A DNA stretch of 64,000 nt from Myxococcota bacterium (GTDB lineage Bacteria; Myxococcota; XYA12-FULL-58-9; JALHOP01): contig JALHOP010000002.1 in the NCBI GenBank assembly GCA_022842935.1, forward strand, positions 186,001 through 250,000, in the 5' to 3' direction. Numbering within the stretch: position 1 is the stretch's first letter; each line of letters opens with the position of its first letter. Both the position numbers and the translations under genes were made by a program. The notes below the pieces were generated by a model, which ran no database searches, had not been told where the DNA came from, and worked only from the letters and a program-made list of their open reading frames with translations. Below are positions 4,270 to 36,914 of the stretch, in pieces.

Positions 4270-4392
4270 AATGATCTTGTCCGCCATCGCGGTTTCCTCG
4301 TGGCGATAGTACCGCGGCTTGCGTTGCGGTAGCGTCGCAGTCTCGTAACCTCGTGACCGAGGTTGCGAGCTCGCTCGAGGTCTTGCCGCCCC

Positions 4393-7300
4393 ATGTCCAA
4401 GCTCCGCTCTCTCCTGTCGCGGTTCTTTGCCTTCATTTTCGGAACGTTCGATTGGGATCCGCCCCCGTGGCTCGAGGCAGTGGGCCGCGGAATGGGCCGC
4501 TTCTTGCGCGGCCTGCGCTCGTTGCACTTCGGGCAGATCATGGCCCTGGTGGTCGGGGTCTCGGCACTCGGCAGCTTGGGCACGTGGCTCGCCCTTCGAC
4601 CAAGACCGCCCGAGCCACTGCGCGCGACGCTGACTGCATACGCACCAAACCCGCCGCCACCCCGGAAGGGACGCGACCCGGTACCAGCGCCCGAGCCCGC
4701 ACGCCTCGTCTTTGATCAGTCGGTTGCAGCGATGGAGCTGGTCGGCAAACCGGTGACCGCCGGTATCAGCATCAAGCCGCAGGTCGCAGGTGCATGGCAG
4801 TGGGTGAGCGACCGCGAGCTCGTTTTCACCCCCGAGGCACACTGGCCCGTTGGTGTTACCTACGACGTCCACGTCGCGCGGCCGGCGATCGCACCGCAAG
4901 CCAAGCTCGCCAACGACGATTGCGAGATCGCGACCCAGCCGTTCAAGGCGACCATCAACGATTTCAGCTTTCAGCAAGATCCGGTCGATCCCGACGGCAA
5001 ATATGTCTTCGGAACCATCGCCTTCAACTATCCGGTGCAGCGCACCGATTTCGAGAGTCGTGTGGTTGCGGAGCTGGTCGACCCGAAGAGCGGCAAGACC
5101 ACACCTCTCGAGCTCACCGTGAGCTACGACGACCTGCGCTTCGAAGCCTACGTGAAGAGCGCCGCCATCTCGACCCCCAACGACGACCTCGTAGCGCGCC
5201 TCATCGTCCGCGGTGGCGTCCGCGCAGAAGCCGGAGGTGATGCAGCGAAGGAACCACAGCAACAGGAGACGCGAGTGCCTGGTCGCTATGGCGTCTTCAG
5301 CATCTCGGACGCGTCAGCGACCGTCGTGCGCGACGAGAAGTTCGATCCAGAGATCGTCCTGATCGTCGGCACTGCGTCGGGCATCGACGAGAAGAAGATC
5401 GCCAAGGCCGTTCAGGTCGTCGAGCTACCCGCAAACAAGCCCGGCGAAGACGGCGACGAACCCATCAAGAACTACGCCTGGAGCAATGCGGGCGAGGTCA
5501 GCAAAGACGTCGTCAAGAAAAGCCCCAAGGTGAACCTCACTCCGGTCCCAGCCGAGCGCGAGATCACGACGCAACATACCTTCAAGCTTGCCTCCGTAGG
5601 GACGCAGCAGCGCGATATCACGCCTGGACGGTATCTCTTGGTTCGCATCCCCAAGGGACTCGAAGCACACGGCGGCTACATCGCCAAAGACGACTTCGAA
5701 ACCATCGTACGCGTGCCTCGCTATCCCCAGGAAGTGCGCATCATGCACGAGGGCGCCCTGCTCTCGGTGGCGGGTGACAAGCGCCTGAACGTCATGGTGC
5801 GCGGGGTACCCTCGGTGAAGATCGAGCTCGCGCGCGTGCTGCCTGGCGAGCTCAACCACGTCATCAGTATGACCTCGGGCCCCTTTGCCACGGCGTCGTT
5901 CAACAACTACCGCTTCGACGAGCAGAACGTCTCCGAGATCTTCAGCGAAATACGCGACCTCGATACGAACAACCCGCGCATCGCGCAGTATACGGTGCTC
6001 GACTTCTCGCAGCGGGTTCAGCCCCAGCAAGGGGGGCGCCGTGGTTTGTTCATCGTCAAGGTTACCGCGTGGGACAAAGAGAAGAACGCTCCAGCGGACC
6101 TCACGACCACCTACCAGACTGTCGGCGGCGACCAAGGCGACGGGGACGAAGGCGAAGAGGACAGCGAGCGCTACGGCAGCGACGAAAGCGACTACGAGTC
6201 GCCGGCAGCCTACGACCAGGCCGCTGACCGCCGCTTCGTGTTGGTGAGCGACCTCGGTCTGCTGGTGAAGACCGACCCTCAGAAAAACGCGAAGGTCTTC
6301 GTCCAATCGATCGCCCGTGGCGAGCCTGTGGACGGCGCGACGGTCGAGGTCATCGGCAAGAACGGTCTGCCCATCGTCAGTCGTCGAACCGATGGAGGTG
6401 GCATCGCCGACATCCCCGCGCTCACGGGCTTCAAGAACGAAGAAACTCCGATCGCCTGGGTCGTCCGCGATGGCGGTGACCTGGCCTTCATGGCCATGGA
6501 CCGCGACGACCGCGAGCTCGACATGTCGCGCTTCGAGGTGGGGGGGGTGCGCACGAAAGGCAACGCCGATGCGTTGACCGCGTACGCGTTCTCCGATCGC
6601 GGCATCTACCGACCGGGCGACACCTTTCACGCCGCGTTCATGGTGAAGCCCGTCGACTGGTCGAAGCCAGTCGCCGGTGTGCCATTGCAGCTCGTCGTCG
6701 TCGACCCGCGTGGGATCGAGGTGAAGAAGCAGAAGCTCGCCTTGCCTGCGAGCGGCTTCATCGAGCTCGCGTACACCACCTTCGAAACGGCCCCAACCGG
6801 CGACTACACCGTCAACGCCTACATCGTGAACGACAAGCGAGGAAACGCGTTGCTTGGGAGCGTCAGCGTTCGCGTCGAAGAGTTCTTGCCCGACCGGCTA
6901 CGCATCGAGACACGTATCGGCGACGGCAAGCTCGGCGGCTGGATGGCGCCCGAGGATCTCGCAGCCCATATTGGCCTCTACAACCTCTTCGGCACCGCCG
7001 CAGCAGAGCATCGCGTCGCCGCGAACATGTATCTGTCGCCACAAGCCGTGTCCTTCGCGGCGTTCAAGGATTACGCCTTCACTGACCCTGCGGCTGCCGA
7101 CGAGAGCTACGAGGAGTCCCTCTCGGAGTGCACCACTGACGGCGACGGCCATTGCGATTTCGCGCTCGACCTCAAGCGCTTCGCAGGCAGCTCCTACATG
7201 GTGTCGGTTTACGCGACTGGTTTCGAGCTCGACGGTGGGCGAGGTGTGTCGGGTTCGGCACGGGCGCTTGTGTCACCGCGACCCTACTTCGTTGGCGTCA

Positions 7301-10281
7301 AACGCGAGGGAGATCTCGCGTTCGTAAATAAGGACGGAGAGGTCGGTGTACGCTTCATCGCTGTCGACAAGAACGTCAAAGCGGTCGACGTCGAAGAGCT
7401 TCGCGCCGTGCGTATCGAAGAACGCTACGTGTCGGTATTGCAAAGGCAAAACAACGGCTCATTTGCGTATCAGTCGGTACGTAAGGAAATCACGCGTGGC
7501 GAAGAAAAGCTCGCCATCAAGGCTGCGGGCACCCGCATGAAGCTCGACACCCGCGAACCCGGAACCTTCATCGTTTCCGTCCGCGACAAGCGTGATCTCG
7601 AGGTGTCACGCGTTCGCTATAGCGTCCAAGGAGAGGCTAACCTCTCCCGCAGTGTCGAGCGCAACGCTGAGCTCGAGCTGGTACTCGACAAACGCGACTA
7701 CGCAACGGGCGAACCGATAAACGTCGCCATCAAGGCGCCGTACGCGGGGAGCGGCCTCATCACCATCGAGCGCGACAAGGTGTACGCGCACAAGTGGTTC
7801 AAGACCGGGACCAACGCGACCGTACAGACCATCACTTTGCCGGCGGGTCTCGAGGGCAACGGCTACGTAAGCGTCGCCTTCACGCGTGACTCCGAGTCGC
7901 CGGAGATCTTCATGAGCCCACTGTCCTACGGTGTCGTTGGCTTCTCGGTGAGTCAAAAGACGCGCACGGTCGCGATTCAGCTCGACAGCCCCGAGCTCGT
8001 GAAGCCGGGCGACAAGCTCAACGTACGCTATAGCGCCGACCGCCCAACCAAGATGGTGGTCTGGGGAGTCGATGAGGGAATCTTGCAGGTGGCCCGCTAC
8101 GAGACACCAACCCCCCTCGCGTTCTTCTTCGAAAAGCGGGCCCTCGAGGTTCGCACCAAGCAGATCCTCGACCTCATCTTGCCGGAACATCACGTGGTCG
8201 CGGCGCTCATGAAACAAGGCGGCGACGGCGATGGAGGCGCGAGCAAGAACCTGAACCCATTCCGTCGCAAGCACGACGCTCCAGTCGCTTTCTGGTCGGG
8301 CATCATCGATGCAGGCACCGAGAGCAAGACCTTCACCTATCAGGTGCCGGACACCTTCAACGGGACGATGCGGGTCATGGCGGCGGCCCTTGCGCCAGAC
8401 GCGGTCGGCGTCGCTCAGAAAAAGACCACCGTTCGCGGACCGTTTGTCATCTCACCGAACGCACCTCTCTTCATCGCGCCGGGTGATACCGCCGAAATAA
8501 GCGTCGCGGTCGCCAACAACGTCGAGGGCTCGGGGAAAGACGCGAAGGTCGAGGTGGCCCTTCAGGCTGGCGACGGCGTCAAGGTGATGGGCGAAGCCTC
8601 GCAGACCGTAACCATCCCCGAGGGTCGCGAAAGCGCCGTCCGCTGGAAGCTCCAGGGCACGACCAAGCTGGGAGCGGCAACTTTGAAACTGACCGCGCGC
8701 AGCGGCAGCGCCTCGGCAACGTTGACGACCGACACGAGCGTGCGCCCAGCGAGCGCCTTCGCGAGCCAGGTGTTGTCGGGCATCGTTGCGTCCGGAAGCG
8801 TGGACGTCCCGCTCGCCCGCCGCCTGTTACCGGAATACGCAAAGCACGAGGTCACGGTCTCGTCGGCGCCGCTCGCTCTCGCGCGCGCCCTGCAAACCTA
8901 TGTCGAGAACTTCCCGCACCTGTGTACCGAGCAAGTGGTGAGCGCCGCGGTGCCGAGTCTGCTCTTGCGTCAGTACCCCGAGCTCGCCAGCAAGACGAAG
9001 CATTCGAAGCCAATCGTCGAGAACGCCCTCGACGTCCTGCAGTCGCGACAGAATGACGACGGTTCGTTCGGCTACTGGACGGCGTCCTCACGCGTGTCCG
9101 ACTACGCCTCGCTGTACGCGACGCACTTCATGCTCGAGGCAACGGAGCGCGGTCTTCCCGTGCCAGCCGAGCTCAAGAAGCGCGCGCTTGCGAACGCACG
9201 GGAGCTCGCGCGCCGTCCGCTCGCGGCGATGTCGTCCGCGCGGCTGCGTGCTTTCGCGGTCTATCTTCTGGCACGCGCCGGCGAACACTCGGCCCGCGAG
9301 CTCGCAGAGCTGCGCGACTTCCTACGTAAAGACCAGAGCGGCGCTTGGAAGAGCGACATCACGGTAGCGTTCCTGGCGGCTGCATACCGCCTGGCCCGTG
9401 ACGAGAGCGAAGCTTCGGTGCTCATTCGCACCGCAGAGCTCGCGCGTGAAGTGCCACGCGACCCTGGGACGCTCTACGACGAGCAAACCTACGCGGCGCA
9501 GCTCTTCTACCTACTCGCACTGCACTTCCCGGAACGTATCGCTGACTTCGACAAGAGGCTCATCGAGCGCTTGGTGCAGAGCGCCGGTAGTGGCCGCGGC
9601 AACACGATCGGTTCGGCCTGGACGCTGTACGCTTTCGCCGCGTACGCGCGCTCGGACGCGGCGAAGTCGGCCACGGGGAAAGCGACCGTGACCGCGACAG
9701 CCGACTCTGGTGCAAAGCAACCGCTGACGCTTCTGGGTGCGAGCTTCCCGACCAGCGAGCTCGCCCTCGACACCAAGAACCTGCGGATCACCAACGACAG
9801 TGACCTACCTCTGTTCTACGCGATCACAGTGTCGGGCTTCGACCGCGAGCCCGCAACGACGGCCGAGACGCGGGGCATCGAGATCATCCGCTCCTTCGAG
9901 GACGACAAGGGCAAAACGCTCACCGAGGTCCCCCTCGGGGAGACCGTAAACGTCCATGTGAAGATGCGCGCGATCGAAGGAACGGTGCATGACGCGGCGG
10001 TGGTCGAGCTGCTCCCGGCCGGGTTCGACCTCGTGCTCGATGGGAGCGGAGGTCGCGTCATGACGCCGGCAAGTACTTGGCAGCCAGAATACGTCGACGC
10101 ACGCGAAGATCGAGCCGTCTTCTACGGCGACATCACGAAAGACATGAAAGAGGTCGTCTATCGCCTACGCGCGACGACACGTGGCACCTTCATCGTCCCG
10201 CCCACGCACGCAAGCGCGATGTACGTGCCCGAGGTTCGCGGCAGCGCAGCGCGCGGCTCCATCGCGGTCGTCGGTCAATGA
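4393..10281 (+). CDS. yfaS: Bacterial alpha-2-macroglobulin (YfaS/ECA2M type)
   Basis: About 1,962 residues, a giant periplasmic protease inhibitor. One membrane helix near residues 46-66 (FGQIMALVVGVSALGSLG) is followed by a Pro-rich linker (PNPPPPRK) and a long array of beta-rich macroglobulin domains. The thioester motif CTEQ is at residues 1511-1514, in FPHLCTEQVVSAAVPSLL. The Cys and Gln that form the thioester are present; E. coli has CLEQ at this place. A helical thioester domain (NDDGSFGYW, YATHFMLEA) follows, then a receptor-like C-terminal domain. There is no lipobox, so it is anchored by the helix and not as a lipoprotein. It overlaps pbpC by ATGA, the known yfaS-pbpC partnership: trapped proteases outside, wall repair beside. 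Start ATG 4393; a TTG at 4363 is possible but less likely. Confidence 0.93.
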   Translation: MSKLRSLLSRFFAFIFGTFDWDPPPWLEAVGRGMGRFLRGLRSLHFGQIMALVVGVSALGSLGTWLALRPRPPEPLRATLTAYAPNPPPPRKGRDPVPAPEPARLVFDQSVAAMELVGKPVTAGISIKPQVAGAWQWVSDRELVFTPEAHWPVGVTYDVHVARPAIAPQAKLANDDCEIATQPFKATINDFSFQQDPVDPDGKYVFGTIAFNYPVQRTDFESRVVAELVDPKSGKTTPLELTVSYDDLRFEAYVKSAAISTPNDDLVARLIVRGGVRAEAGGDAAKEPQQQETRVPGRYGVFSISDASATVVRDEKFDPEIVLIVGTASGIDEKKIAKAVQVVELPANKPGEDGDEPIKNYAWSNAGEVSKDVVKKSPKVNLTPVPAEREITTQHTFKLASVGTQQRDITPGRYLLVRIPKGLEAHGGYIAKDDFETIVRVPRYPQEVRIMHEGALLSVAGDKRLNVMVRGVPSVKIELARVLPGELNHVISMTSGPFATASFNNYRFDEQNVSEIFSEIRDLDTNNPRIAQYTVLDFSQRVQPQQGGRRGLFIVKVTAWDKEKNAPADLTTTYQTVGGDQGDGDEGEEDSERYGSDESDYESPAAYDQAADRRFVLVSDLGLLVKTDPQKNAKVFVQSIARGEPVDGATVEVIGKNGLPIVSRRTDGGGIADIPALTGFKNEETPIAWVVRDGGDLAFMAMDRDDRELDMSRFEVGGVRTKGNADALTAYAFSDRGIYRPGDTFHAAFMVKPVDWSKPVAGVPLQLVVVDPRGIEVKKQKLALPASGFIELAYTTFETAPTGDYTVNAYIVNDKRGNALLGSVSVRVEEFLPDRLRIETRIGDGKLGGWMAPEDLAAHIGLYNLFGTAAAEHRVAANMYLSPQAVSFAAFKDYAFTDPAAADESYEESLSECTTDGDGHCDFALDLKRFAGSSYMVSVYATGFELDGGRGVSGSARALVSPRPYFVGVKREGDLAFVNKDGEVGVRFIAVDKNVKAVDVEELRAVRIEERYVSVLQRQNNGSFAYQSVRKEITRGEEKLAIKAAGTRMKLDTREPGTFIVSVRDKRDLEVSRVRYSVQGEANLSRSVERNAELELVLDKRDYATGEPINVAIKAPYAGSGLITIERDKVYAHKWFKTGTNATVQTITLPAGLEGNGYVSVAFTRDSESPEIFMSPLSYGVVGFSVSQKTRTVAIQLDSPELVKPGDKLNVRYSADRPTKMVVWGVDEGILQVARYETPTPLAFFFEKRALEVRTKQILDLILPEHHVVAALMKQGGDGDGGASKNLNPFRRKHDAPVAFWSGIIDAGTESKTFTYQVPDTFNGTMRVMAAALAPDAVGVAQKKTTVRGPFVISPNAPLFIAPGDTAEISVAVANNVEGSGKDAKVEVALQAGDGVKVMGEASQTVTIPEGRESAVRWKLQGTTKLGAATLKLTARSGSASATLTTDTSVRPASAFASQVLSGIVASGSVDVPLARRLLPEYAKHEVTVSSAPLALARALQTYVENFPHLCTEQVVSAAVPSLLLRQYPELASKTKHSKPIVENALDVLQSRQNDDGSFGYWTASSRVSDYASLYATHFMLEATERGLPVPAELKKRALANARELARRPLAAMSSARLRAFAVYLLARAGEHSARELAELRDFLRKDQSGAWKSDITVAFLAAAYRLARDESEASVLIRTAELAREVPRDPGTLYDEQTYAAQLFYLLALHFPERIADFDKRLIERLVQSAGSGRGNTIGSAWTLYAFAAYARSDAAKSATGKATVTATADSGAKQPLTLLGASFPTSELALDTKNLRITNDSDLPLFYAITVSGFDREPATTAETRGIEIIRSFEDDKGKTLTEVPLGETVNVHVKMRAIEGTVHDAAVVELLPAGFDLVLDGSGGRVMTPASTWQPEYVDAREDRAVFYGDITKDMKEVVYRLRATTRGTFIVPPTHASAMYVPEVRGSAARGSIAVVGQ

Positions 10282-12620
10282 AGTGGCGCGGGTTGTGGCG
10301 AGCCATCGCCGCGACCTGCGTCGTCGTGGCCGTCGCGCTTTTCGTCGCTGGCAAGCCGCCGTTGCTCGACGATGTGAGCTTCGGCGTCGCCATCACCGAT
10401 CGCGACGGTAAGCTCCTGCGGCTCGCGCTCGCGGCGGACGATCGCTACCGTGTCTACACGACTCTCGATGAGATCGCGCCCGCGCTCGTCGATGCAACGC
10501 TCCTCTACGAAGACCGCTGGTTCTATCGACACCCGGGCGTGAACCCAGTGGCCGTGCTTCACGCGCTGTTCGACGCGGCGGCAGGCGCGCATCGGCGCGG
10601 CGCATCGACGATCACCATGCAGGTGGCGCGACTGCGCTATGGGCTGGTGACGACGACGCTCACCGGGAAGCTCTGGCAAATGCTGCGCGCGCTCCAGATC
10701 GAGGTGTTCCACGACAAGCGCGAGATTCTGGAGGCGTACCTCAATCTCGCCCCGTATGGAGGCAACGTCGAAGGCATTGGCGCGGCGAGCCTCGTCTACC
10801 TCGGCAAGCCAGCGCGTGAGCTCTCACGGGCAGAGAGTATGGCGCTCGCCGTCATGCCGCAGAGCCCGAACCGCAGGGCGCCTACCCGCGAGGGCCTGAC
10901 ACCCGCCGACATGCGAGCCGCCCGCCAACGCTTGATCGAACGCTGGCGCGAACAGGTTCCCGAAGACGACGCCGAGGTCCTCGCGGCTGGCGCCGACCTC
11001 GCGGTCCGACCCCGCTCGGACCTGCCGTTCCTCGCGCCGCATGTCTGCGATAGCGTTGTCGCTCAGCGCCACGATATACTGGGGCCGTCGCCAGGCGAGA
11101 TCCGCACCACCATCGACCGCGGCCTACAAGACCTCCTCGAGCGCAGACTGTCTGGGTGGGTCGAGCGCGGCAACGACCGGGGCATCGAAAACGCCGCTGC
11201 GATGCTGGTCGATCGCCACACCATGGAGGTTCTCGCGAGCGTTGGCTCGGCGTCGTTCACGAATGATGCAATCGCGGGACAGGTCGACGGCACGCGCGCT
11301 CGCCGCTCGCCCGGGTCGACACTCAAGCCGCTCATCTATGCGCTGGCGCTCGAACAAGGACTCATTCACCCCCGCACGCTCCTCACCGACGCCCCGGCCC
11401 GCTATGGCATCTATGAGCCCGAGAACTTCGACGGAACGTTCGCTGGACCGATCAACGCGACCGACGCCTTGGTGCGCAGCCGCAACGTGCCCGCAGTCGA
11501 GCTCGAGTCACGACTGCGGTCGGGCGGGTCAACGAGCTTGTTCGATGTCTTGACCCGCTTAGGGGTCGTTAGCGCCAGCAGCCGCGAACGCTATGGCTTG
11601 TCCTACGTCCTCGGCAGCGCTGAAGTATCCATGCGCGAGCTCGTCGTCCTCTACGCGGCCCTCGCGAACGGTGGCATGCGGCGTGAGCTTCGCGACCGCG
11701 TAACGATGAACGGTACGGCCGAGGAGCGGCTCACCAGCCCAGAGGCCGCCGAGCTGACGGTGGCTATGTTGCGCAGCCAAGAGCGTCCGAACGCATCCCC
11801 CTTCGCCCCTGTCCGTGATCGCGTCGACGTCGCTTGGAAGACCGGCACCTCCTACGGCTTTCGCGATGCCTGGACGCTTGCCATTGCCGGTCAGTACGTT
11901 TTGGCGGTGTGGGTTGGAAACTTCGACGGTCGCGGCAACCCCGTCTTCGTCGGTCGCACTGCGGCTGCACCCTTAGCGTTCGAGATCATCGATGCGCTAC
12001 GCCCGAAGCTGCGCAACCCGGCGCCACCGAGCTTCACCACGATTCACCAAGGTGAGGTCTGCGGCGTCTCGGGTATGGTGCCTGGAGCCCATTGTCCCCG
12101 CACGCAGCGCACCACGTTCATCGCTGGAGTGTCACCGATCGCGGCATGCGACATCCACGCTCCGATCGTCATCGACGATGCCACCGGCGAGCGTGCGTGT
12201 CCCGGTGAAGAAGCGGGGCCTGGCCGCCACCTCGAGGTCTACGAGCTCTGGCCGAGCAACGTCGCCCGCGTTTTCGAGCGCGCCGGTCTCCGCCGCCGGG
12301 TGCCGCCGAAGTACGCGTCCCGCTGCAAGCTCGACGACACGAGCAGCACGGGCAAGCCGCCGCGCATCACCTCGCCGCAGTCCGTCCTCACCTACAGCCT
12401 CCGCATCGACGACCCGCGCTCGTCGGTGGTGCCTTTCGCGGCCGTGACCGACGCCGACGCGCGCGAGCTACGCTGGTTCGTCGACGACCGCTACGTCGGA
12501 CAAGCCGCCGCTGGCGAGACCTTCATGTGGCCGGCTCACCCTGGCAACTTCGTGGTGCGCGCCGTCGATGACAACGGGCGCGCCGATAGTCAGCAGCTCT
12601 TGGTTGAACGGGTCGAGTAG
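10278..12620 (+). CDS. pbpC: Penicillin-binding protein 1C
   Basis: Bifunctional peptidoglycan synthase, about 780 residues. It has an N-terminal membrane helix (about residues 9-27) and a GT51 glycosyltransferase domain with EDRWFYRHPG (catalytic Glu78) and GASTITMQ. The transpeptidase domain has all three motifs: S347-T-L-K350, S401-R-N403 and K521-T-G-T. The C-terminal part (PRITSPQSVLTYSLRIDD to the end) is the BiPBP_C domain that marks PBP1C. The start is chosen at the ATGA overlap with the alpha-2-macroglobulin gene. A strong hairpin follows the stop. No catalytic residue is missing, so an active enzyme is expected. Confidence 0.96.
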   Translation: MKWRGLWRAIAATCVVVAVALFVAGKPPLLDDVSFGVAITDRDGKLLRLALAADDRYRVYTTLDEIAPALVDATLLYEDRWFYRHPGVNPVAVLHALFDAAAGAHRRGASTITMQVARLRYGLVTTTLTGKLWQMLRALQIEVFHDKREILEAYLNLAPYGGNVEGIGAASLVYLGKPARELSRAESMALAVMPQSPNRRAPTREGLTPADMRAARQRLIERWREQVPEDDAEVLAAGADLAVRPRSDLPFLAPHVCDSVVAQRHDILGPSPGEIRTTIDRGLQDLLERRLSGWVERGNDRGIENAAAMLVDRHTMEVLASVGSASFTNDAIAGQVDGTRARRSPGSTLKPLIYALALEQGLIHPRTLLTDAPARYGIYEPENFDGTFAGPINATDALVRSRNVPAVELESRLRSGGSTSLFDVLTRLGVVSASSRERYGLSYVLGSAEVSMRELVVLYAALANGGMRRELRDRVTMNGTAEERLTSPEAAELTVAMLRSQERPNASPFAPVRDRVDVAWKTGTSYGFRDAWTLAIAGQYVLAVWVGNFDGRGNPVFVGRTAAAPLAFEIIDALRPKLRNPAPPSFTTIHQGEVCGVSGMVPGAHCPRTQRTTFIAGVSPIAACDIHAPIVIDDATGERACPGEEAGPGRHLEVYELWPSNVARVFERAGLRRRVPPKYASRCKLDDTSSTGKPPRITSPQSVLTYSLRIDDPRSSVVPFAAVTDADARELRWFVDDRYVGQAAAGETFMWPAHPGNFVVRAVDDNGRADSQQLLVERVE

Positions 12621-20598: not shown

Positions 20599-23574
20599 TC
20601 AAGACGCCAGGGCGTCGGCGGGCGGTGGGGGCGGCTGGTTCTCCTCGAGGCGAATAACGTAGCGTCGGCGCTCTTCGGGCGAGCTGAGCGTATCGCGGGC
20701 CCTGCGGAGCAAGCCGTCGATCTCCCGCGCGCGTCGCTGCACGTCATCTGGTAGCCCGGGCAGCAGATTCTCGACTTTGAAAGGCCTTGCCAGGCGGTCG
20801 TAGGCCGCGAGCACGTCTCTTTCGGTTGCCTGCCGCTCGAGCTCGAGCATCGCAAAATAGTCACGTCCCTTGAGGGCCAGATACGTGCGCGCGACCTCTT
20901 CGCAGGCGTGCGTTAGCTCACGGTAGTCAACAGGCTTCGATGGGCGGGCGGCCCCCTGTGCGTCGGGGAACTTGGCCGCTTCGCCGGGCTTCGATTGCGC
21001 CCTGATCATCTCGGTAACGATCAGCACATAGAGAGTGTGCGCGATGGTCAAAGCGTGACTGTCGTCGCTGCGCAGCGCTTGTTCGAAGGTGGTCTTGCCG
21101 TTCAGTAGGTGCGCGACGCCGACACTCCGCAGAAACGGACCGAGACTTTCGTAGTGAATGGGAAAGACCTCGGTAGCCACGATGTAACGCGCCCGTAAGG
21201 GCGAGAAGAATGCGAGCAAGGAGCCCACATCGTAGTGTTCGCAGACACCGCGCCAGATGATTTTGACGGGGTGAACTTCGGACAGGACCACGCTGTCGGG
21301 CGGCGCGCGTGATGGCGTGATCTTATAGGTACCGTCCCGCCACGAAAACGACGCGGCCAGTCGCAGCTCGGTCTGCTCGCGAATGCAATCGAGGAGGTCA
21401 CGCTCGTCGATGACGCCCAGAGCCACCAGCAGCTGCGCGGCGCGACTACCAGCGCGACGTTTGGCGTCAGCGTGTTGCTCTGGCGTGATGCGTCCGTGAT
21501 CGCGGAGAATTGTCGCGATATCATCGTCATCTTCGTCGGGCGTTACGGTGACGGCGACCGGGAAACCATTCCAGACGTCGATGATACGATCGGCGCCGCT
21601 GCGGCTGAGACGCAACGTGCCGCAATAGGTGCCCCCGTACAGCTCGAAAAGGAGGCGAGGGAGTGGCGTCGTCGCGAGGTCGCCCTCGGGCGGCACGCTC
21701 GGCGGCAACGTGGTGCGCGGCTCGGCACCAACGGGAGTGCGCTGGACGATGGCCTCAAACGGCAGCGCAGGCGGCTCGTGCAGGGCCTCACGCGGGGGTG
21801 GAGGAGGCTCGTGCGCGGCAACGGGCGGAGGTGGAGGAGGCGTGACGGCCGCGACCCGTGCAGGGAGAGAGACAGCCGGGGCAGGAGGCGACCACGTCGA
21901 CGCCCCCGTCGCTTTCCATGCGCTCACCCCGGTGACGGCTTCGACAGGCGGAGGAGGAGGCTCGACGACACCTGCTTCGACCGGTGGAGGCGGCGGTTCG
22001 ACGGGAGGCTCCGCGATAACAGGCTCGTCGGCTACGTTCGAGGTCACCCCGTGCCCGGCGGCGACATGTTCCGCGATTACGGATAACGGAGCGGCAAGCG
22101 AGCGCGGCTCATCCATCTCCCACGCCGCGGGAATCGAGTCGCGATACGCTTCCACGACAGCCGGTCGAACACTTTCGCCACGAGAGGCCCCCGGCTCGGT
22201 CACTTCCCAGGCGGCTGGCTGAATCTCGACGGTCTCGGTGTCGTGGGCGGACAGCGCGAGCAGATCGGCCTGCGGAGGTGTAGCAATGAGCGTACCTTCG
22301 GACGCGGCGGAAGCAGGCAACACGGGCGGGGGCTCGCTGAGTCCAGCTCCGAGCTGAGGTAGCTCGGGGACCGGATCGACCGGCCCAGACAGTGTGGGCT
22401 CGTCGTCGAAACCAAGTGCTTCAGCGACATAGGCTTGCACGGCCATGGCCACGGAGCGCGCAGCGTCGTCGGGCAGAGCTTCGAGGCGAGCGGTGGGAGT
22501 CTCGCCAAGGGCACTGTCGAGAGCGCTATCTAGCGCGTTGTCGAGACCGGAGCCGAAGTCGAGACCGGCGAACCCGTCACGCGGAGCATCGGCCGAGGGG
22601 CGCGCGAGGAGCCAGTCACCTGCGGGAGCTTCCTTTGGAGGAGACGGTGGAGGCGCGGCGGCAATCGGCACCTCGGCAATCGGCGGCTCGGCAGTCGGCG
22701 ACTCGGCGATCGGCGGCTCGGCAATCGGCAGCTCGGCAATCGGCAGCTCGGCAATCGGCAGCTCGGCAATCGGCAGCTCGGCAATCGGAGACTCGGCAAT
22801 CGGAGACTCGGCGATCGGCGGCTCGGCAATCGGCACCTCGGCAATCGGAGGCTCGGCGATCGGCACCTCGGCAATCGGCAGCTCGGCAATCGGAGGCTCG
22901 GCAATCGGCGACTCGGCAATCGGAGGCTCGGCGAGCATCGCAGCGCTCGCCATCGGCGAACGTTGATCCACAGTTGGCTCATCATGAATCGCCAACGGCA
23001 TCGGCAGCACCGGAATCGGGATCGGCATCAACTCTGCGCGCGGCTCGGCGGTGACGACCCGGCTCTCCCGCGCGACCTCAAGAACGTTTGGCGGCGGCGG
23101 CGGCGGGGCCACGTCCACTCCAACGGACGGCGGCGCGACGAGATTCGTCACATCGGGGACCGGTACGGCGAAAGACATCACCGCCGCCGCTGCCCTTGGA
23201 GGCGCGGCGAAACCCCACTCCCCCAGGAACTTCTTCAAGGCGTCATATCGAAAAGGAGACGGCAAGACGGCGTCACAGCCTGTCCGCGATAGAAGAACAG
23301 CACGCGCATCGGGGTCGTTCCCCGAGGGATGCAAGATGATGAAGCGTGTCGCGGGCTTTTGCTTCTTGACCTCGGTGCACAACGCCGCGCCACCGCCACG
23401 TCCCGACACGTCGGACGCCGCGATGACCAGCAGCACCTCTTCGCTCGCGAACAAGCTCATCGCCTGCTCGCGTTCGAGTGCTTGCAACACGCGAAAGCCG
23501 TCGCGCGCGAGTACCGTCGCGATCAGCTCCAGCTCGGTCGGGTCGCTCTCGGCCACCAAAACACAGCGACTCAA
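20599..23574 (-). CDS. Pseudo-receiver / PIAE-repeat / DUF4388 / J-like domain protein
   Basis: 991 residues, starting with TTG in a TTGA overlap with the nadD stop. The receiver-like domain (1-120) keeps the acidic pair (E9, D11). It has Ala53 where the phospho-Asp is expected and PSPF for the conserved KP, so it is probably not phosphorylated. A long Pro/Ala/Glu linker (about 120-620) includes 18 copies of a xPIAE pentapeptide. DUF4388 (PATAN-like) follows from about residue 630 (GDLATTPLPRLLFELYGGTYCGTLRL). The last 100 residues resemble a J domain (RDYFAMLELERQATERDVLAAYDRLARPF), but the HPD tripeptide is missing. It faces an Hsp70 gene across nadD. The role is probably in signalling or protein-complex assembly. 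Domains are my reading of motifs. Confidence 0.82.
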   Translation of the reverse strand: MSRCVLVAESDPTELELIATVLARDGFRVLQALEREQAMSLFASEEVLLVIAASDVSGRGGGAALCTEVKKQKPATRFIILHPSGNDPDARAVLLSRTGCDAVLPSPFRYDALKKFLGEWGFAAPPRAAAAVMSFAVPVPDVTNLVAPPSVGVDVAPPPPPPNVLEVARESRVVTAEPRAELMPIPIPVLPMPLAIHDEPTVDQRSPMASAAMLAEPPIAESPIAEPPIAELPIAEVPIAEPPIAEVPIAEPPIAESPIAESPIAELPIAELPIAELPIAELPIAEPPIAESPTAEPPIAEVPIAAAPPPSPPKEAPAGDWLLARPSADAPRDGFAGLDFGSGLDNALDSALDSALGETPTARLEALPDDAARSVAMAVQAYVAEALGFDDEPTLSGPVDPVPELPQLGAGLSEPPPVLPASAASEGTLIATPPQADLLALSAHDTETVEIQPAAWEVTEPGASRGESVRPAVVEAYRDSIPAAWEMDEPRSLAAPLSVIAEHVAAGHGVTSNVADEPVIAEPPVEPPPPPVEAGVVEPPPPPVEAVTGVSAWKATGASTWSPPAPAVSLPARVAAVTPPPPPPVAAHEPPPPPREALHEPPALPFEAIVQRTPVGAEPRTTLPPSVPPEGDLATTPLPRLLFELYGGTYCGTLRLSRSGADRIIDVWNGFPVAVTVTPDEDDDDIATILRDHGRITPEQHADAKRRAGSRAAQLLVALGVIDERDLLDCIREQTELRLAASFSWRDGTYKITPSRAPPDSVVLSEVHPVKIIWRGVCEHYDVGSLLAFFSPLRARYIVATEVFPIHYESLGPFLRSVGVAHLLNGKTTFEQALRSDDSHALTIAHTLYVLIVTEMIRAQSKPGEAAKFPDAQGAARPSKPVDYRELTHACEEVARTYLALKGRDYFAMLELERQATERDVLAAYDRLARPFKVENLLPGLPDDVQRRAREIDGLLRRARDTLSSPEERRRYVIRLEENQPPPPPADALAS
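22661..22930. repeat. 15-base tandem repeat, about 18 copies
   Basis: Units of the type GGCAATCGGCAGCTC, with variation mostly in the last triplets, run through the linker of the pseudo-receiver gene. On the coding strand they encode xPIAE, where x is Pro, Ser, Leu or Val. Four adjacent copies are identical, a sign of recent slippage or unequal crossover. Confidence 0.92.
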
Positions 23575-33559: not shown

Positions 33560-33665
33560 GATCTTCTGCCAGTCCGAAATCTGAACGTGCGTACAGCAAT
33601 GTGTTGACGGGATCCCCCAGTACAGCTAATCGGCCGGATAGCCGACTTTTTGGAGGTCGAAAACC

Positions 33666-35732
33666 TTGGCCAAGAAAGCCGCCGCCCGTCGCCCCGCACC
33701 CAAGGCTAAACCCGCGCCCAAGTCTTCGAAGAAGGCCGCTGCAGCGCAGCAGAGTCTCGACTTCGGAGCTACCGCCGCGAAAGGCAAGCGCGCTGCCGCC
33801 GCCCCCGAAGGCGTCGATCTGACCGCCGAAGCGGAAGCCGCGGTCCTCGAGGGTCGCAAGAGCAAGAAGGCTCCGGCCACCGAAGATGCCGACGCGCCCA
33901 AGAAGAAAGAGCGCACCCGCGTCTCCGCCGAGAAGATGAGCGAGATGCAGCGTGAGATCTCGATCAGCGAGTTCTTCACGAAGAATCGCCACCTGCTCGG
34001 CTTCGACAACGCTTCGCGCGCCCTGCTCACCTCCATCAAAGAGGCGGTCGACAACTCGCTCGACGCTTGCGAAGAAGCGGGCATCCTCCCCGACATCAAG
34101 GTGGTCATCGAGCAGCAGAGCGAGACCCGCTACAAGATGCACGTCGAGGACAACGGTCCTGGCATCGTCAAAGCCCAGGTGCCCAAGGTCTTCGGCAAGC
34201 TCCTCTACGGCTCGAAGTTCCACCGCTTGCGCCAGTCGCGCGGCCAGCAGGGCATCGGCATCAGCGCCGCTGGCATGTACGGCCAGCTCACCACCGGCAA
34301 GCCCGTCGTGGTCACCTCGAAGACTGGTAAGGGCAAGCCTGCCTACCACTACCACCTGCGCATCGACACCAACGCCAACAAGCCGGTCATCGTCCACGAA
34401 GACGAGTTCGACTGGGGCGACAAAGACCACGGCACCGAAGTCGCGATCGAGATGGAGGCCTCGTACAAGGGCGGCAAGAAGGGCATCGACGAGTTCATTC
34501 AGCAGGTGGCCTTTGCAAACCCCCACTTGCGGCTCGAGTACTGGCGCCCCGGCAAGCCCCCGCTCGTTTATCCGCGCGTCACCAACGAGCTACCGCCCGA
34601 GGCCAAGGAGATCAAGCCGCACCCGTATGGCGTCGAGCTCGGCATGCTCATGCGCCTAATGCAGGGGTCGAACGAGAACACCGTCGCCGCTCTCTTGCAG
34701 TCGGAGTTCTCGCGCGTCACGAGCAGCGTCTCACAAGAGATCCTCGGCAAGGCCAAGGTGTCCGCACGCAAGCGTCCCCGTGATGTCAGCCAGGCCGAGG
34801 CCGAAGCCATCTACAAGGCCATCTCCGAGACCAAGATCATGGCGCCGCCCACCAACTGTCTCGCGCCTATCGGCGAAGAGGCGCTAGTCGAGGGCTTGAA
34901 AGCGCTGCTCGTGCAGCAGCACTTCGCCGCCGAAGAGGCGCGTCAACGCAAGAAGGCAGAAGACGAGGCCGCAGCGGCAGCGGGCGGCGAAGAGGCGGCC
35001 GCGGCAGCAGCGAGCGCCGCTGAGAGCAAGATCACCGAGGCCTTGTCGGCCGTCACCGAGATCAAGCCCGACGAAGACGAAGAGGACGCCGAGCTCGCGA
35101 AGTTCAGCCTGACCGTTGGGGCGGACGAAGCCGCGGCGGACGCAATCCGCGCCGGCGTCATCAACATCTTCGGTCAGCCTACCTTCATGACCGCGTGCAC
35201 CCGGCCCCCGAAGGTCTACCGCGGTAACCCCTTCCAGGTCGAAGCTGCGATCGCCTGGGGCGGGGAGCTTCCAGCCGACGAGCTGGCGCAAGTCGTGCGG
35301 TTCGCCAATCGCGTGCCCCTGCTCTACCAGCAAGGCGCCTGCGCCATGACGCAAGCAGTCCTGCGCACCAACTGGAAGGGCTACGACGTCGAGCAGTCAC
35401 GCGGCGCGCTGCCTACCGGTCCGCTCCTCGTGATGGTCCACATCGCATCGGTGTGGGTGCCCTTCACCTCCGAGGCCAAGGAGGCGGTTGCGCACTACGA
35501 CGAGATCATCAACGAGCTCAAGTCCGCGCTGCAGGAATGCGGCCGTCGGTTGTCGCGCCACATCCGCCGCAAGCGTCGCGCCGCGGACGAGCTCAAGAAG
35601 GCGAACTACATTCAGAAGTACATCCCCCACATTGGCGAGGCCCTGCAGCAAATCTTGGGTCTGTCGAATCCGCAAAAAGAGACGACCATCGAGAAGCTCA
35701 CCGGCATTCTCGAGCGCTCGCGCAAACTCTAA
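33666..35732 (+). CDS. top6B: DNA topoisomerase VI subunit B
   Basis: ATPase subunit of a type IIB topoisomerase, rare in bacteria. 688 residues. TTG start with GGAGGT nine bases upstream. A Lys/Ala/Pro-rich basic tail (about 1-95) precedes the GHKL ATPase domain. Its N box is EAVDNSLDA (126-134), its G1 box DNGPGI (162-167) and its G2 box [14 protein letters not shown] (about 194-207). A helix-two-turn-helix and transducer domain follow ([60 protein letters not shown]). An Ala/Glu-rich insertion sits near residues 420-460. The end ([23 protein letters not shown]) matches Top6B. Followed after 18 bases by subunit A. Confidence 0.95.
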
Positions 35733-35750
35733 CTTCGCACGAGGTTCACC

Positions 35751-36914
35751 ATGGCAAAGAAGACTCCAAAGAGCGAAGGCACAAGCCGCGTCCGCGGCGA
35801 AGACCAGGCGAGAAAAGACAAGGTCACCAACAAGGCGATCGATGACGTCGCCGAGAACATCTACAAGACGATCTTGAAAGAAGTGAAACCGGATCTCGCG
35901 ATGCCGGTTCGCTCCCTCGCCAACGTCAACTACAACCAGAAGACGGGCTTCTTCAAAATCGGCCGCGGCATGAAGACGCGCACGCTCACGGTCAACACAG
36001 TGAAGACCTTCGCGCAGACGCTGCGCATGATGGCGCTCTCGAAGGAGCTCATCCAGACCAACGACTTCGCCACGAAGCGAGACGCCTACTATCAGTCGAA
36101 GAACTGGCAAGAGGCGAAGTTCGACGAGCAGCCCGAGTCCGACACCGTGATGGACGACATCGAGGCGATGTTCTCGATCCACGGGGTGTCGCGTGAAGAG
36201 ATGCGATTCGTGCCGCAAGAGCACGGCGGCGCCGTCGCTGGTGAGCTCGTCGTCGTCGACCGCGACATGGAGACGGGTCGGCGCATCGAGATCGACTGCA
36301 CGAACTTCGGCTCTGGCGCCTACTCGGTACCCTCGTGGGTCGAGCACCTCGAGTTCCGCAGCAAGGCCAAGTTCATCATGGCCATCGAGACGCACGGTAT
36401 GTTCCAGCGTCTGCAGTCGCACAACTACTGGCGTAAGGCGGGGTGTATCCTCGTCTCCTTGGGCGGCGTGCCGTCTCGCGCCTGCCGCCGCTTCATTCGG
36501 CGCCTCTCTGACGAGCTCAATTTGCCGGTGTATGCTTTCACGGACTGCGACCCGTACGGGATCTCGAACATCTACCGTACGCTGAAGGTTGGCTCCGGTA
36601 ACGCGGCGCACATCAACCAGTTCTTCTGCGTACCGAACGCCCGCTATCTGGGCCTCACCCCCCAGGACATCATCGACTGGGATCTGAAGGACGCAACCCA
36701 CGTGCTGGGCGAGGTCGACATCAAGCGCGCCAAAGACGCTCTGAAGAACGACCCGTTCTTCACCGAGCACAAGACCTGGGCGAAGGCGATGGAGCAGCTC
36801 ATGAAGATGGGCGTGCGCGCCGAGCAGCAGGCGCTCTCGAAGCACGGCTTGAACTTCGTCATCGAAAAGTACCTGCCGGAGAAGCTCAAGAACGTTTCGA
36901 AGTTCTTGCCGTAG
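35751..36914 (+). CDS. top6A: DNA topoisomerase VI subunit A (Spo11-like)
   Basis: DNA-cleaving subunit of topoisomerase VI. 387 residues, ATG 35751. The 5Y-CAP domain has TKRDAYYQSKNW, with Tyr113/Tyr114 as the likely nucleophile site. The Toprim domain has the metal-binding Glu213 (AIETHGMFQRL) and D265-C-D267 (FTDCDPYGISNIYRTLKVGS). GGVPSRACRRFIRRLSDE, LGLTPQDI and the helical tail also match the Top6A/Spo11 family. All catalytic residues are present, so with Top6B this should be a working enzyme. Base composition matches the neighbours, so any transfer from archaea is old. Confidence 0.95.
   Translation: MAKKTPKSEGTSRVRGEDQARKDKVTNKAIDDVAENIYKTILKEVKPDLAMPVRSLANVNYNQKTGFFKIGRGMKTRTLTVNTVKTFAQTLRMMALSKELIQTNDFATKRDAYYQSKNWQEAKFDEQPESDTVMDDIEAMFSIHGVSREEMRFVPQEHGGAVAGELVVVDRDMETGRRIEIDCTNFGSGAYSVPSWVEHLEFRSKAKFIMAIETHGMFQRLQSHNYWRKAGCILVSLGGVPSRACRRFIRRLSDELNLPVYAFTDCDPYGISNIYRTLKVGSGNAAHINQFFCVPNARYLGLTPQDIIDWDLKDATHVLGEVDIKRAKDALKNDPFFTEHKTWAKAMEQLMKMGVRAEQQALSKHGLNFVIEKYLPEKLKNVSKFLP

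Follow-up and report, generated by a model that had tools for sequence, protein, structure and literature searches.

A predicted sliding-clamp-binding motif in the topoisomerase VI of Myxococcota that lack topoisomerase IV

The stretch of 64,000 nucleotides analysed here (hereafter the window), from a Myxococcota genome, carries top6B and top6A in tandem at positions 33666-36914, both open reading frames being intact. From their sequences and from the distribution of their relatives, we consider it fairly likely that a topoisomerase VI tethered to the sliding clamp acts as decatenase in place of topoisomerase IV in this lineage, which keeps gyrase and has no ParC. The clamp-binding part of this proposal relies on a short motif predicted in the N-terminal tail of Top6B, and the replacement part on the mutual exclusion of the two enzymes across the phylum.

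The Top6B-Top6A pair and its origin

The first gene, top6B (33666-35732, on the forward strand, as are all the features of the pair given below), encodes a protein of 688 residues with GHKL ATPase, H2TH and transducer domains. The second, top6A (35751-36914), encodes 387 residues comprising a winged-helix tyrosine domain and a Toprim domain, and is of a Methanococcales-like type (A-I, see below). A ribosome-binding site GGAGGT (33652-33657) lies 8 bases 5′ of the TTG start of top6B. Upstream of this TTG the frame stays open for only 8 codons, so that the start of the N-terminal tail is well fixed; moreover, the position-wise codon composition of the tail DNA is unlike that of the DNA immediately upstream.

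Top6B scores 688 bits against NCBIfam PRK04184 (cut-off 274) and 195.6 bits against the Pfam transducer model PF09239, and is also matched by the GHKL models PF02518/PF13589. Top6A matches TP6A_N (PF04406), Topo_VI_alpha and the Spo11 Toprim model (PF21180). The closest solved structures are those of M. mazei and Saccharolobus for Top6B and of M. jannaschii for Top6A, and they align over nearly the whole cores. The predicted model of Top6B, in which the core is confident, the tail disordered and an insertion partly to mostly helical, matches solved Top6B structures with E values down to 1.5e-51; in Foldseek it aligns, H2TH region included, with 9o0g, 2q2e and 1mx0 over about 550-594 columns.

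The earlier note had described a complete topoisomerase VI, and every catalytic part that it named was found. These are the GHKL boxes of Top6B (VDN at 128, EDNGPGI at 161 and GQQGIG at 193), the catalytic tyrosine pair Tyr113/Tyr114 of Top6A (36087-36092), aligned with M. jannaschii Top6A, and the Toprim acidic residues Glu213, Asp265 and Asp267 (36387-36551), covered by the PF21180 match. We infer that the pair encodes a functional topoisomerase VI, a type IIB enzyme. Its presence in a bacterium is not new, bacterial topoisomerase VI having been described already (PMC11302465). Nor is the enzyme 'only sporadic in bacteria', a statement of the same note that proved too strong: Top6B occurs in 66 of 195 Myxococcota genomes, and a scan across genomes of bacteria and archaea yielded at least 578 confirmed relatives, of which the best 80 were mostly from Myxococcota and Planctomycetota.

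The note had also wanted trees of both subunits, in which a contaminant-like archaeal branch would have spoken against its reading. In both trees the window pair clusters first with three sequenced members of its order and, beyond these, with other Myxococcota. The 657-kb contig on which it lies carries bacterial housekeeping genes around it, and the genome amounts to 6.28 Mb in 46 contigs. The two trees and this contig context rule out contamination and a recent transfer from archaea. In the Top6A tree M. jannaschii and two DPANN archaea are in the same clade as the window type, which agrees with the published view of an ancient transfer from close to Methanococcales (PMC11302465).

In that tree, of 79 proteins, a single split separates two deep types of Top6A, A-I near M. 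jannaschii and A-II. Identity between the two types is about 33% for Top6A and about 50% for the Top6B partners, and on the B tree A-II is scattered. Exchange of subunits between Top6A types is suggested by the sequences but is not claimed here, because an AU test does not reject a single A-II clade for Top6B (p 0.385). Three loci labelled Vicinamibacteria, Acidobacteria and Blastocatellia (L039, L092 and L103) have Top6 inside Myxococcota clades and are either mis-binned contigs of metagenome-assembled genomes or transfers.

No operon partner is conserved across the topoisomerase VI loci: coaE is shared by 4 of the 59 and rbfA/truB is found at 1. Elsewhere in the window, a gene for a bacterial alpha-2-macroglobulin precedes one resembling penicillin-binding protein 1C (4363-12620), a known pairing, and a gene on the reverse strand (20599-23574) encodes a protein of 991 residues that matches response regulator and DUF4388 models and whose long middle part is rich in proline and extensin-like.

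The N-terminal tail and its predicted clamp-binding motif

Two segments of the window Top6B lie outside the family core, as the earlier note had recognised. The Lys/Ala/Pro tail (residues 1-94; 33666-33947) is disordered, with a pLDDT of about 35-45 over residues 1-80 of the predicted model. Its approximately 94 residues include 27 A, 16 K and 7 P, and 22 K+R against 12 D+E, giving a net charge of about +10. The second segment, rich in Ala and Glu and for the most part helical, is inserted ahead of the transducer (residues 413-506; 34902-35183; 28 A and 14 E); in most other Top6B it measures only 5-13 residues.

We compared the tails of 65 Myxococcota Top6B, the motif statistics being drawn from the 59 complete proteins. 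With start codons as chosen here, the tails range from 0 to over 250 residues and cannot be aligned except for one short motif. It appears as QLGLF in family f7, QLELV/QLSLI in the Anaeromyxobacter family, QGSLF/QGDLF in f23, QLDMF in f24, QMDIF in f25 and QLDLL/QLELL in f18 and f22. Between the start and the RRATAE-type stretch at the entrance to the core, the motif stands out as the main conserved island both in f7 (QLGLF) and in the Anaeromyxobacter family (QLEL). Families f27-f31 have a short tail, and most of their members carry a similar motif in the pre-transducer insertion instead (QQDLF, QLSLV, QMGLL, QLNLL, QLALF, QGDLF, QLGLF). In f3, f8, f10, f12, f16, f26 and f30 there are only near-misses of the motif or none.

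This island matches the motif by which bacterial proteins bind the beta clamp, whose consensus is QL[S/D]LF or QxxLF and which also takes hexapeptide forms, QLSLPL for example (PMC12309361; PMC9690074), and clamp binding is predicted on this ground. A generic regex leaving motif positions 2 and 3 free is matched by 44 of the 59 Top6B, against an expectation of 6.6 when the segments of these proteins are shuffled, and none of 1000 shuffles exceeded 14; these figures are to be read knowing that the regexes were refined after patterns had been noticed in the data and that genomes inside a family are not independent. With one protein per family, the motif is present in 12 of 22 against 3.0 expected. 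Its site follows the architecture of the protein: it is in the tail of 35 of 47 long-tailed proteins, and among the 12 short-tailed ones in the insertion of 8 and in the tail of none. Some Top6B without a tail motif (L050, L069, L098 and L106) have clamp-like C-terminal ends (QGKLFK, QLRLV, QLKLVE and QLKLLD).

DinB, a known clamp ligand, served as calibration; its C-terminal motif is QGELF (QGELFGG) in the window genome and QMSLL, QLELF, QASLF or QAQLF elsewhere. In Planctomycetota topoisomerase VI the motif is at background (5 of 40 against 4.0 expected), from which it follows that clamp binding would be no general need of the bacterial enzyme, and five DPANN archaeal Top6B have short N-termini with the motif in none of the five. 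As judged from these sequences, the trait goes with Myxococcota and some relatives and not with topoisomerase VI itself.

The window protein carries the predicted motif as QQSLDF (residues 28-33; 33747-33764), a weak, hexapeptide-like variant. It follows the hexapeptide pattern QxxLx[FL], its second residue being unusual, and does not match the generic regex (QxxLF). QxxLxF arises in 0.08% (0.0008) of shuffles of the window tail, a frequency that applies to a motif recognised after relatives had been seen. The four other members of the order bearing topoisomerase VI have QPSLF, QQALSF, QLDLGL and QLSF at tail residues 15-36. We regard QQSLDF as a probable clamp motif of the weaker kind; the case for the predicted motif is stronger at the level of the phylum than for the window protein.

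The earlier note had proposed that the tail tethers the enzyme to DNA. Better supported is the reading of the tail as a disordered tether that bears a predicted sliding-clamp motif, and its basic residues may add non-specific contact with DNA. A tether like that of histone H1, whose lysines would bind DNA non-specifically and raise processivity while the Q-rich motif is incidental, accounts for the Lys/Ala/Pro composition, for the predicted disorder and for a net charge that reaches +39 in relatives. However, the window tail is only moderately charged, and in some relatives the charge is close to zero or below it. Moreover, the conserved element is a short hydrophobic motif that shifts into an acidic insertion when the tail is short, which a charge tether by itself does not predict, and we hold this explanation to be unlikely. 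Less probable again is that an ordinary bacterial topoisomerase VI replaced topoisomerase IV and that the tail is non-functional low-complexity sequence, common in high-GC genomes. The great variability of tails and insertions in length and composition is compatible with this, as are the Planctomycetota tails without the motif, but it leaves aside a motif enriched over composition-matched shuffles and conserved in tails that are otherwise unalignable.

Exclusion of topoisomerase IV and a proposed mechanism

The check for gyrase and topoisomerase IV that the earlier note had called for found gyrase only. The window genome, 97% complete, has one GyrA, one GyrB-domain hit, no second copy and no ParC; its sole gene of the GyrA/ParC family is a GyrA by its score (1196 bits to the gyrA model) and by its GyrA box QNRGGRG. 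Across the 195 Myxococcota genomes, a second gene of GyrA/ParC type is found in 0 of the 66 with topoisomerase VI and in 114 of the 129 others. Counting only families with at least one genome 90% complete, 20 have topoisomerase VI and 9 a second type IIA gene (topoisomerase IV), while no family has both and no family lacks both (family-level Fisher p 1e-7, a value that carries no species-tree correction). Thus within Myxococcota topoisomerase VI without topoisomerase IV is so far a rule without exception. A previous survey had noted this state for three Myxococcota families, with a single species examined in each; across bacteria it found no such rule, some bacteria having topoisomerase VI alongside topoisomerase IV (PMC11302465).

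Some genomes deserve a separate mention. In the window's order, G188 and G191, which represent its two families devoid of topoisomerase VI, carry a PRK09631-type ParC, unlike the phylum's ordinary ParC; these proteins have about 650 residues (L191:883-2841 in G188 and L183:856-2850 in G191), and the latter ends in DRQGKLL, which resembles a clamp motif. Four genomes (G177, G175, G192 and G168) have one GyrA and neither topoisomerase IV nor topoisomerase VI. Two of them, G192 and G168, are drafts whose congeners have topoisomerase VI, and a second look with Top6A and with a Top6B profile, one of the two checks including a positive control, still found none in them. The other two, G175 and G177, are very small genomes of the phylum (0.3 and 0.5 Mb).

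Given the exclusion pattern, replacement is the default reading in Myxococcota. Together with the preference for decatenation reported for topoisomerase VI in vitro (PMC8837201), this pattern indicates a decatenase role, and as far as gene content can tell it is very likely that topoisomerase VI replaces topoisomerase IV as decatenase. In addition, M. mazei topoisomerase VI complements an E. coli parE-ts mutant, according to unpublished data mentioned by the authors of the survey (PMC11302465). That gyrase alone segregates the chromosomes while topoisomerase VI serves recombination or break formation in the manner of Spo11 is very improbable: Top6A is homologous to Spo11, some bacteria have topoisomerases VI and IV together and the four genomes above have one GyrA and neither of the two, but the phylum-wide exclusion, the complete GHKL and transducer domains of Top6B, the in vitro preference and the complementation all stand against it.

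A clamp-tethered topoisomerase VI could work as follows. As in archaea, and as the intact motifs suggest, ATP would make Top6B close its GHKL gate around one duplex, and Top6A would cut the other with its active tyrosine and Toprim metal site, allowing strand passage. The tail of Top6B would act as a flexible tether whose predicted motif binds beta sliding clamps (DnaN) remaining on newly copied DNA. This binding would recruit the enzyme behind the fork, near the intertwined sister duplexes, where it would remove the intertwines, a job done elsewhere by topoisomerase IV.

A parallel is seen in the Myxococcota that bear topoisomerase IV. The N-termini of their ParC contain a clamp-like motif in 18 of 38 rows, which are redundant, against 0.84 expected; examples are MSEQLSMFGNGG, MAEQLSMFAAD, QMNMF and QLGLF (loci L186, L188, L189 and L193-L222). 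It is absent from several N-termini of Myxococcaceae-type ParC among the 38 rows. On a narrow balance, we are inclined to think that the Myxococcota decatenase, whether topoisomerase VI or IV, would be recruited by the clamp through a short motif gained separately, in disordered segments that differ between the two, so that decatenation is coupled to the moving replisome.

Comparison with known systems

These observations bear on why some bacteria swapped topoisomerase IV for an archaeal-type enzyme and on how the latter fits into the bacterial replisome. If the proposal is true, this would be the first predicted clamp-recruited bacterial topoisomerase as far as our literature search reached, and unrelated enzymes would have gained the same short recruitment motif. 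In the titles, abstracts and text passages covered by the literature search, we found no report of an interaction of topoisomerase VI or IV with the sliding clamp or DnaN in bacteria. Known beta-clamp ligands (DnaE, PolC, DinB and Hda) present a short motif of the same Q-x-x-L-F type in a disordered segment. A review of bacterial clamp ligands has no topoisomerase among them (PMC9690074). In archaea, a pull-down with NucS recovered topoisomerase VI subunits together with PCNA (PMC4929162), a result that is no more than suggestive.

With topoisomerase IV (ParC/ParE), the window enzyme would share the role of decatenase beside gyrase, and the N-terminus of Myxococcota ParC often has a similar clamp-like motif (QLSMF). 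Yet topoisomerase IV is a type IIA enzyme in which the fold organisation of the cleavage subunit is unrelated, and the two never occur in one Myxococcota genome. The archaeal enzymes (M. mazei, Saccharolobus shibatae and the Top6A of Methanocaldococcus jannaschii) have the same domain order, the same GHKL, transducer, tyrosine and Toprim motifs and tandem B-A genes, and the M. mazei holoenzyme is a structural match to the window Top6B. To this archaeal plan the window Top6B adds the basic N-terminal tail with its clamp-like motif and the 94-residue insertion, and it ends after the transducer, where M. mazei has an Ig-like domain (PMC11302465).

The closest precedents are the topoisomerases VI of Anaeromyxobacter, Vulgatibacter and Pajaroellobacter (Allen and Maxwell 2024, PMC11302465), likewise found with gyrase and no topoisomerase IV. 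Tails with clamp motifs are not described in the accessible part of that study (PMC11302465). Compared with it, the window represents a different order and the Methanococcales-like type of Top6A, and the present analysis adds the phylum-wide count.
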